Below are positions 1,626 through 14,415 of a stretch of 38,679 nt of DNA, one piece after another (the stretch's first letter is position 1; every line of letters starts with the position of its first letter). The position numbers were made by a program, and so were the translations under genes. The DNA lies in NCBI GenBank assembly GCA_003140235.1, contig PLJN01000041.1, forward strand, positions 161 through 38,839. The letters run 5' to 3'. The stretch comes from Acidobacteriaceae bacterium (GTDB lineage Bacteria; Acidobacteriota; Terriglobia; Terriglobales; Acidobacteriaceae). The notes under the pieces were generated by a model. It searched no databases and was not told where the DNA came from. It saw only the letters and a list, made by a program, of their open reading frames with translations.

Positions 1626-4025
1626 ATGAGAAGTTTAAGGACCGCGCTCGCAGTACTGGTTCTGGTTGCGTCCGTGATGGGCGCCGGCGATTCCGCCAAA
1701 ACACTGTTCAAGAAGGCAGTGGACGCGGACGCGCGCCAGGACTATGAGGCAGCCTATGAGTTTTACAAGGCGGCCTATGATAAAGACCCCAAGGAACTGA
1801 AATATCGCGTGCCCTATGAGCGTACGCGCTTCCTCGCTGCGGCTTCGAAGATCAAACGCGGGCAGAAACTGCGCGACCAGGGCAAGTTACAGGAGGCGCT
1901 TGAGCTTTTCCTGCGCGCAATGGAGATTGATCCCAGCAACGACCTGGCCGGGCAGGAAATTCGCCGCACACGGCAGATAATCCAGGGGCAGCCGCCGCCC
2001 GGGACCGCCCAGCCGCAGGCAGCAGCGCCCAAGGTTGAGGATCTTCTGCGCCTGCGTATCGAGAGGGCACGCTCACCTATAGAACTCGCACAGCTCTCCG
2101 ATGTCCCGATAACGGGACTCAAGATGACCAATGAAGATACCAAGGTCGTTTATGACACGCTGGGCAAGCTGGCAGGTCTGAATGTTTTGTTCGATCCGGA
2201 ATACCAGTCCAAGCGCATACCGGTCGATCTGCAACATGTGACATTGCGCGAGGCGCTGGATATTGTCTCCATGGAGTCGCACACGTTCTGGCGTCCGGTC
2301 ACGCCAAATACGATTTTTGTGGCGCAAGACACGCTGACCAAGCGTAAGGAACTTGAGCAAAACGTCATCAAAACTTTTTATCTGGCAAACAACGGCGGAG
2401 GCACTACCGCCGGCACAGATCTGCAGGACCTCGTGGCCACCATTCGTACCATTCTGGAAGTGACAAGAATCCAGGTCGTCCCCTCACAAAACGCGATCAT
2501 CATGAAGGGCACGCCCGACCAGGTCGCTTTGGCGCAGAAGATCATTGACGATCTGGACAAAGCCAAGCCTGAGGTAGTAATTGACATTGTGGTGGCGGAG
2601 GTAAACATCGGCAAGACACGCCATTTGGGAATTCTACCTCCCCAGAACGCTGCAGTAACCCTGCAGGGGACAGGCACCACCGGTGGCACCACTCCGACTG
2701 CCACCCCGCTCACGTTGCAAAGCCTGGAGCATCTTGTAGAAGGCAATTTCGGGCTAACGATTGACGGTGCCACGGCCCAGTTGATGTCGTCTGGAACCGA
2801 CAGCAAGGTACTGCAAAACCCCAAAATCAGAACTACGGACAATGAGAAAGGCTCGCTCAAGATTATCGCCAAAATCCCGATCGCAACGGGTTCGTTTGGT
2901 ACGCCGCTGGGAGTTACCGGTGGCGCAAGTCTTGGTGTGAATACGCAATTTACCTTTATAGACGTCGGCGTGATCATGGAGATTACGCCGCATGTACATC
3001 CGGACGGCCAGATCACGCTCAAAATCTCGATTGAGCTCTCCAGTAAGAGCGGCGACTCGGCCCCTATTGGCGGCATAAGCCAGCCTATTATTAGTCAGGA
3101 TAAGATCGAGCAAACCATCCGCTTGCGAGACGGCGAAGTGAATTTTCTTGGCGGCATCAGGGAGGAAAACGAATCAAAAACCGCCAGCGGTGTGCCTATC
3201 CTGGGATCAATCCCGCTCTTGAAGTATTTCTTTTCCCAAGAGCAGAAGTCAAAGACAACCGACGAACTCGTTTTTATCGTAGTACCGCACATTATTCGCG
3301 GGCAGGAAATTTCCGAGTTGAATCGCCGCGGTTTAGACGTTGGCACCCAATCGGGCATTGAGTTACGGCAAGCGAACATTCAGCCTCCTGTCAAAACAGA
3401 CAGCGATCAACAAGCAGCGTCAGCAGCGCAGCAAGCGCCGCCGCAGGCCACCGTCGTTGCTCCGATCCAGCAACCGGCCGCTCCGGTACAGCAGCAAGTC
3501 GTTCCAGCGCCTGCCGTACAGCCACCGGTCGTGCCGCCAGGTGCTGCGATTCCGGCGGACGGGACTCAGCAGAACAGGCCTTCGGCAGCGTTTTCTGGCG
3601 ATAGCGGGATGGCCAGTTTCCGTCTTAGTCCGCCGAACCAATCGCCGACGCAGGGAAGTACCTTCGCTCTCAATGTGACGCTGGCCAACGCCCGCGATGT
3701 CCACTCGATTCCGTTGCAGGTAACCTACGATCCCAACGTGATGCAGTTTGTAAGCGTCTCGAATGGCGGCTTTTTGTCCAAAGATGGGCAGACGGTGACG
3801 CCGCCGGTGAATCGCGATGATCCCGCAACCGGAACATTGCAAGTGATGGCCCAGCGTGCTCCAGGAACTGCTGGCGTTTCCGGCGAAGGCACCGTATTCA
3901 GCCTGGTATTTATTGCCAAGGCCAAAGGCTCCGGTGTGGTCTCAATCACCATTCCGGGAGCGCGCAATAGCCAGAACCAGCCGATCCAGGCGCAGGGGGC
4001 GCAGGCCGCCATTACGGTGAATTGA
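1626..4025 (+). CDS. Secretin (GspD/PilQ superfamily) with N-terminal TPRs and C-terminal cohesin domain
   Basis: This 799-residue protein probably forms the outer-membrane channel of a type II secretion or type IV pilus-like system. A signal peptide (about 1-20) is followed by TPR-like helices (about 25-115). A secretin N-domain follows (TGLKMTNEDTKVVYDTLGKLAGLNVLFDP, about 160-240), then a second KH-like N domain (about 245-315) and the secretin channel domain (about 320-560) ending VPILGSIPLLKYFFSQ, the classic C-terminal signature. After a Pro/Gln/Ala-rich linker (about 590-660), residues 662-799 resemble a cohesin fold (FRLSPPNQSPTQGSTFALNV, IPLQVTYDPNVMQF, GEGTVFSLVFIAKAKG). AAGGAGC precedes the ATG. 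Two pseudopilin genes and a damaged third follow directly. The fusion of a cohesin to a secretin is unusual outside a few phyla. Confidence 0.88.
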   Translation: MRSLRTALAVLVLVASVMGAGDSAKTLFKKAVDADARQDYEAAYEFYKAAYDKDPKELKYRVPYERTRFLAAASKIKRGQKLRDQGKLQEALELFLRAMEIDPSNDLAGQEIRRTRQIIQGQPPPGTAQPQAAAPKVEDLLRLRIERARSPIELAQLSDVPITGLKMTNEDTKVVYDTLGKLAGLNVLFDPEYQSKRIPVDLQHVTLREALDIVSMESHTFWRPVTPNTIFVAQDTLTKRKELEQNVIKTFYLANNGGGTTAGTDLQDLVATIRTILEVTRIQVVPSQNAIIMKGTPDQVALAQKIIDDLDKAKPEVVIDIVVAEVNIGKTRHLGILPPQNAAVTLQGTGTTGGTTPTATPLTLQSLEHLVEGNFGLTIDGATAQLMSSGTDSKVLQNPKIRTTDNEKGSLKIIAKIPIATGSFGTPLGVTGGASLGVNTQFTFIDVGVIMEITPHVHPDGQITLKISIELSSKSGDSAPIGGISQPIISQDKIEQTIRLRDGEVNFLGGIREENESKTASGVPILGSIPLLKYFFSQEQKSKTTDELVFIVVPHIIRGQEISELNRRGLDVGTQSGIELRQANIQPPVKTDSDQQAASAAQQAPPQATVVAPIQQPAAPVQQQVVPAPAVQPPVVPPGAAIPADGTQQNRPSAAFSGDSGMASFRLSPPNQSPTQGSTFALNVTLANARDVHSIPLQVTYDPNVMQFVSVSNGGFLSKDGQTVTPPVNRDDPATGTLQVMAQRAPGTAGVSGEGTVFSLVFIAKAKGSGVVSITIPGARNSQNQPIQAQGAQAAITVN

Positions 4026-13736: not shown

Positions 13737-14267
13737 TCATCCGAGGTCAGGTTCGCACAGGAACGTTTCGTTGAACCGGTTGGTGAAATTGGCAACGCAC
13801 ACCGTCAGCGCAATTTCAACGATCTGTTCTTCTGAGAAGTAATTCCGCAGCCCCTCCAGATCGCCATCGCACATGGTCGTGGACGCGCGGGTGATTTTAT
13901 CGGCAAAAAGAATCACCGCTTTTTCCTGGTCATTGAACAATTTGCTGCGATGATAATGGGTGAGCGCCTGAATCTGCTCGTCCGTAATTCCAATCCGCTT
14001 CGCCGAAGCGGTATGGGCCTTGGTTCAATACTCGCAGCCATTCACCAGGGACGTTTTGAGGTAAGCAAATTCCTTCAGTTTCTGCTCCACGGTCCCGGGG
14101 CCAGTGATGGCCGCGTAGAACGGGAGGAAATTCTTCAACACTTCGCCCTTATGAGCCATGGTGCCAAAGAAGACCGGAATCTTTCCGAATTTTGCTTTCA
14201 TGCCTTCAAAAATCGGCTTCAACTCGGCCGAAGCTTTTTCTTCAGGTAACGGTTTCACTGCTGACAT
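13737..14267 (-). CDS. Carboxymuconolactone decarboxylase/AhpD-like protein, candidate selenoprotein (in-frame UGA)
   Basis: Read through one UGA at 14027-14025, the frame encodes 176 residues of a CMD/AhpD-family protein: MSAVKPLPEEKASAELKPIF at the start, VNGCEY-UGA-TKAHTASAKRIGIT in the middle, FNDQEKAVILFADKITR and FSEEQIVEIALTVCVANFTNRFN at the end. The UGA replaces the second Cys of the CxxC motif. In characterised AhpD this is the peroxide-attacking residue, with the His four residues later, which is kept here. Both halves are in the same frame and both match the family, so this is not a frameshift. A SECIS-like hairpin follows the UGA. AGGAG precedes the ATG. Selenocysteine is the favoured reading; a Cys-to-stop mutation is the alternative. 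No sel genes are in the window. Confidence 0.75.
13995..14011 (-). promoter_or_regulatory. Candidate bacterial SECIS hairpin after the in-frame UGA
   Basis: On the minus strand the sequence CCGCTTC-GGC-GAAGCGG forms a perfect 7-bp stem with a 3-nt loop. It starts 13 nt after the UGA at 14027-14025, placing the loop at about +21. Outer CCAA (just after the UGA) and UUGG (just after the stem) could add four pairs. A short stem with G in the first loop positions at this distance fits known SelB-binding elements. The hairpin lies within the coding sequence, as bacterial SECIS elements do. Confidence 0.6.
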
Positions 14268-14289
14268 GTTGTTTTCTCCTTTGAATAAA

Positions 14290-14410
14290 GCAATTGGCAA
14301 TTAGCAAATAGCAATTAGCCAAATCACTCGTCACTCGCATTTTTCAATCTCTGCGACTCTGCGTACGCCTCAGTAAAACGCTCTGGCTAATTGCCAATTG
14401 CTAATTGCTA
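14290..14410. repeat. Imperfect inverted repeat of AATTGC/GCAATT units
   Basis: The gap between the AhpD-like gene and the M16 gene upstream of it contains clustered GCAATT units at 14290-14320 and AATTGC units at 14385-14410. GCAATTAGCC (14311-14320) is a perfect inverse of GGCTAATTGC (14385-14394). The array could fold into a long hairpin with a 64-nt loop or act as a transcription stop for the M16 operon. No T-tract is visible. Confidence 0.5.
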
Positions 14411-14415
14411 CTTTT

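Follow-up and report, generated by a model that had tools for sequence, protein, structure and literature searches.

An in-frame UGA in an acidobacterial AhpD-like gene is very probably decoded as selenocysteine

The window, a stretch of 38,679 nucleotides of contig PLJN01000041.1 from an Acidobacteriaceae bacterium, carries on its minus strand a carboxymuconolactone decarboxylase (CMD)/AhpD-like reading frame that is broken by TGA, which raises the question of whether the locus is a damaged gene or one in which UGA is read as selenocysteine (Sec). A first-pass annotation, prepared from the letters alone, favored selenocysteine, holding that UGA is the sole break between two in-phase CMD/AhpD-like halves and lies at the second Cys of CxxC. 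Translation of 14267-13737 (MSAVKPLPEEK...NGCEYUTKAHTASAKRIG...CEPDLG*) and comparison with full-length homologues confirm both points, where the single internal TGA (14027-14025) is codon 81 (of 177 when the stop is counted) and stands where CxxC has its second Cys (NGC78-E-Y80-U81-TKAH85). A separate downstream gene starting at TTG 13940 was considered and ruled out, since homologues form one continuous protein across the TGA. We consider it very probable that 14267-13737 is a functional selenoprotein gene with UGA 14027-14025 decoded as selenocysteine; the insertion itself is what we infer from comparative sequence evidence on the recoding signal, the machinery, the column, the fold and the active-site residues. 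The features of the gene are as follows.

14267-13737, minus strand: putative selenoprotein gene of CMD/AhpD-like type, encoding 176 residues including Sec81; terminal TGA at 13739-13737
14025..14027, minus strand: in-frame UGA, very probably read as selenocysteine 81; homologues share the column (TGA 57, TGC/TGT 45)
14070..14072, minus strand: Glu66 codon, aligned with PA0269 Glu36 and M. tuberculosis AhpD Glu118
14034..14036, minus strand: Cys78 codon, the first, resolving-type residue of CxxU, corresponding to Cys48/Cys130
14013..14015, minus strand: His85 codon, aligned with His55/His137
14276..14280, minus strand: Shine-Dalgarno sequence AGGAG, 8 nt 5' of the ATG

The product was compared with curated protein models to place it among known families. 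It exceeds the cut-offs of Pfam CMD (PF02627, 55.4 bits against 23) and of TIGR00778, the ahpD core domain (38.8 bits against 27.8), and reaches 81.1 bits with TIGR01926 (peroxidase-related enzyme), 0.7 under the curated cut-off of 81.8 that is passed by the relatives L054 (84.3) and L046 (100.6). The 2005 Sargasso Sea survey (PMC1088965) counted AhpD-like COG2128 proteins with a CxxU motif among its new selenoproteins, and AhpD-like selenoproteins were among the most frequent in GOS in 2008 (PMC2398784), such that the origin in metagenome surveys named by the annotation is correct; a 2026 review has the entry AhpD-like TIGR01926 CxxU (PMC13188914). The window protein resembles this group (COG2128/TIGR01926) in fold family, in having Sec second in CxxC, in its widespread Cys homologues and in a SECIS just past the UGA. 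It differs in scoring below the TIGR01926 cut-off, in forming a small clade with L052-L054 and in being terrestrial acidobacterial, not marine. The second-best model, NF053654 (GroundWater_YciW; YciW-related (seleno)protein), is matched over its full length and has known Sec forms, but with 77 bits where the cut-off is 310 the window protein is a relative and a non-member. Similarly, the AhpD-related family NF041238 (AhpD_rel_CFYUT) has the active-site motif CxYUT where the window protein has CEYUT, but the product scores 21.2 bits against a cut-off of 175 and the model, at 357 positions, has about twice its length. The kind of selenoprotein is already known, and the window protein is a divergent addition within a small acidobacterial clade with Sec/Cys interchange. 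In standard annotation the gene would be broken in two or cut short, and at their cut-offs the NCBIfam models covering related selenoproteins miss this protein.

Inspection of the AlphaFold2 model of the product reveals an all-helical structure (pLDDT 94), for which Foldseek returned full-length AhpD-like matches to 6k40 (D. radiodurans AhpD, TM 0.92), 2oyo (0.90) and the debrominase Bmp8 (0.84). In an alignment with PA0269 from Pseudomonas aeruginosa (2o4d, 2ijc), Glu36/Cys48/Tyr50/Cys51/His55 map one to one onto Glu66/Cys78/Tyr80/Sec81/His85; PA0269 differs in having Cys where the window protein would have Sec and in its shorter N-terminus. AhpD and PA0269 each use a five-residue proton relay of Glu/Cys/His-or-Tyr/Cys/His (PMC3141380). 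The annotation had claimed that the second Cys of AhpD attacks peroxide and is activated by a His four residues on. A His of the activating type is present (His85) and the relay is established, but the cited study does not assign the peroxide-attacking Cys.

We propose that SelB and Sec-tRNA(UCA) would read UGA 14027-14025 as directed by a hairpin with its loop 20 nt downstream, giving a 176-residue, all-helical enzyme of AhpD/CMD fold with a redox pair Cys78-x-x-Sec81 and a relay of Glu66/Tyr80/His85. Sec81 would act as the nucleophile on peroxide or a similar electrophile, Cys78 would resolve Sec81 by forming a selenenylsulfide, which a cellular thiol system would then reduce. Peroxide as the substrate, this order of attack and this reductant are the most likely assignments. 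It is possible, although we consider it the less probable case, that a selenoprotein of AhpD fold instead performs non-peroxide chemistry, for example Bmp8-like reductive dehalogenation, thiol-disulfide chemistry or organometal chemistry. Bmp8 (6ohj, 6ohi) is also a sequence relative and gives the best Foldseek E-value in a full-length alignment, and its reaction indicates that the AhpD scaffold is able to serve other electrophiles; in addition, arsenic-linked AhpD-domain selenoproteins are weak matches, and PA0269 is itself only a weak peroxidase (PMC3141380). Bmp8 is a Cys enzyme with a different known reaction and 24-25% identity in the Foldseek alignment. Against non-peroxide chemistry, its TM-score is lower than that of D. 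radiodurans AhpD, and no dehalogenation or arsenic genes adjoin the window gene. By ORF reading, the neighbors are M16 peptidases, which lie upstream on the gene's own strand, and a convergent beta-helix protein; they are not common to the L052-L054 loci, and operon or neighborhood context was dropped as a clue to function. Peroxide reduction through Sec81 is the chemistry we favor.

The RNA 3' of the UGA folds into a hairpin of the bacterial SECIS type, described by two nested features.

13995..14011, minus strand: SECIS upper stem-loop of 7 bp with a GGC loop, arms 14011-14005 and 14001-13995, loop 14004-14002; from folding and covariation
13990..14016, minus strand: SECIS including a predicted 3-bp lower stem (14016-14014 with 13992-13990) and a 2x2 internal loop; from the MFE and centroid structures

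As the annotation had described, a perfect 7-bp stem with a GGC loop (CCGCUUC-GGC-GAAGCGG) begins 13 nt 3' of the UGA, and its loop starts 20 nt after the UGA. The published bSECIS model (PMC13188914) allows a loop of 3-9 nt, a stem of 4-16 bp, a G within the first two loop positions, a distance of 16-37 nt from the UGA and an MFE of at most -7.5 kcal/mol. The window hairpin lies within all of these limits (7 bp, GGC, 20 nt, -14.4 kcal/mol), the MFE applying to the 43 nt that begin with UGA and giving a z of -2.6 versus dinucleotide shuffles. Versus synonymous recodings, the 42 nt following the UGA in the window gene give a z of -2.7. Folding beyond that of synonymous recodings indicates that the protein sequence alone cannot account for the hairpin. 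An Rfam search of the region returned no SECIS family, the sole matches being sub-threshold, microRNA-type and located at an upstream inverted repeat.

To understand how the UGA position behaves among relatives, homologous loci were aligned. A matching homologue is present in 182 of 200 genomes of the same family, and many of the better matches in these genomes have exactly one stop, nearly always TGA. The annotation had called for a search for Cys/UGA exchange, and it occurs at the exact column: among 102 homologous loci, which include named Acidobacteria, Rokubacteria, a Planctomycete and Halobacillus, 57 have TGA at the column of the window's TGA, 42 have TGC and 3 have TGT, with no other codon observed. 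Random further stops in close relatives, which the annotation would have taken as refuting its reading, are not seen. These loci were partly selected for one TGA, so that 57:45 is no frequency, but the position of the TGA was itself unselected, and in the selected loci it always falls in the window's column. A tree of the homologues requires roughly ten switches between Sec and Cys, four or more of which lie on well-supported branches. The nearest relatives of the window protein are L052 (59%, Cys), L053 (54%, Cys) and L054 (46% identity, UGA). For the half of the gene past the TGA, dN/dS is about 0.19 versus L052 and 0.18 versus L053, which argues for purifying selection on the downstream half, as for translated sequence.

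The hairpin follows the codon. All seven pairs in the window's register are present in 45 of 57 UGA genes versus none of 45 Cys genes, and the bSECIS constraints combined with a minimum stem of 6 bp are passed by 55/57 UGA genes versus 9/45 Cys genes (p about 1e-16); in the deviating UGA genes the loop is mostly displaced by one to three bases. Several pairs alternate between C-G and U-A across the homologous loci (e.g. 31:20, 27:24 and 22:23 sequences), which shows that the stem covaries, and L054 carries a compensatory C-G to U-A change within the window's own stem. UGA genes also fold more strongly than Cys genes relative to synonymous recoding (p 8e-6). A phylogenetic independent-pairs test of hairpin versus UGA points in the same direction, with too few starred pairs for significance. 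L052, an Acidiferrales MAG homologue (match 3001-3528) with TGC in the column, retains 6/7 stem pairs and the GGC loop beside its Cys codon; this near-copy is possibly a relic of lost Sec (a SECIS fossil), or part of the hairpin may be due to constraint on the conserved TASAKRIG codons. That is to say, the family offers an unusually clear natural experiment, with one column, many Sec/Cys exchanges and a SECIS hairpin arising and decaying alongside. Separately, UGA forms occur outside Acidobacteriota in Rokubacteria and Planctomycetota (L056-L060), where the loop (GGTCA or GGG) is displaced by one or two bases and two of the loci do not pass a simple perfect-stem test.

Use of Sec is already on record for Acidobacteriota (PMC1794560, PMC12013277). 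The host draft assembly (4.9 Mb in 204 contigs, 89% complete, 3.45% contamination) was searched for selA, selB, selC and selD, as the annotation had advised, and all four were found. SelB is full length (390 bits, cut-off 242), and a tRNA-Sec with anticodon UCA scores 73 bits with Infernal, in agreement with ARAGORN (SeC(tca)), such that the absence of selB or selC, which the annotation considered fatal to its reading, is not observed. SelD (374 bits) has one in-frame TGA of its own at the catalytic position, in the motif AAGUASK, and two SelA proteins are present (542 and 540 bits). The two full-length selA genes, L015 on C53 and L016 on C176, both far above cut-off in one draft genome, reflect either duplication or bin contamination. 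Across genomes, SelB above cut-off accompanies a verified UGA homologue in 40 of 43 cases versus 64 of the 152 others (Fisher p 4e-10). The three UGA genomes lacking SelB above cut-off (G029, G155, G071) each have SelA at 535-557 bits, which makes an assembly gap the simplest reason for the missing SelB.

This body of evidence bears directly on two other readings of the UGA. It is very improbable that the TGA arose by chance as a nonsense mutation, or through a sequencing error, in an AhpD-like gene of the ordinary Cys type, which would then be a pseudogene or artefact. L052 and L053 do have TGC, one base from TGA, and the host genome is a draft; against this, 56 other loci from many genera place TGA in the same column, the matches listed contain almost no TAA and no TAG, the hairpin is much stronger than synonymous recodings, the half of the gene past the TGA is intact and under purifying selection, and the Sec machinery is complete in the host assembly. 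We reject mutation or error on the strength of the 56 further TGA loci, the covarying hairpin and the downstream selection, and the preference of the annotation for selenocysteine over chance nonsense is upheld by these together with the machinery, the column exchange and the co-occurrence with selB. Bacteria show low-level UGA readthrough, but the probability that this UGA is read as another residue, through near-cognate suppression or a UGA-sense code and hence with no selenoprotein, is negligible given that the gene's own terminal stop is TGA, the exchange partner at the column is always Cys, the hairpin is specific to UGA genes, and tRNA-Sec and selB are present. Decoding as selenocysteine is the reading carried forward here.

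The host genome holds two more UGA CMD/AhpD-like genes, L065 (C110:31511-32014) and L102 (C6:5381-5812), each with one TGA at the same motif position and a bSECIS-type hairpin. Somewhat doubtfully, we suggest that AhpD-like Sec enzymes may constitute a major, several-times-duplicated selenoprotein class of the acidobacterial family (three UGA paralogues here), in which Sec and Cys have exchanged repeatedly and one paralogue keeps a conserved tail-to-tail arrangement with selB. If true, this would imply a functional or regulatory tie between an AhpD-like redox enzyme and Sec decoding. A literature search found no published description of a CMD/AhpD-selB pairing, and the window gene itself does not adjoin selB. 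In 27 genomes a CMD/AhpD paralogue shares a contig with selB and lies close to it, convergently (tail to tail) in 26 of them, the gaps being mostly 50-250 bp (e.g. G115:C23, G004:C9, G003:C114, G011:C1 and G053:C8). Those selB-linked paralogues that were read are of the QHHLASSKR type, some with UGA and others with Cys.

Upstream of the window gene, a promoter scan found none. An imperfect 30-nt inverted repeat lies directly upstream of the gene at 14289-14413, with arms that are 87% complementary and separated by 62 nt. The repeat is made of heptamers like GCAATTA/GCAATTG, with five matches there and none elsewhere in the window.
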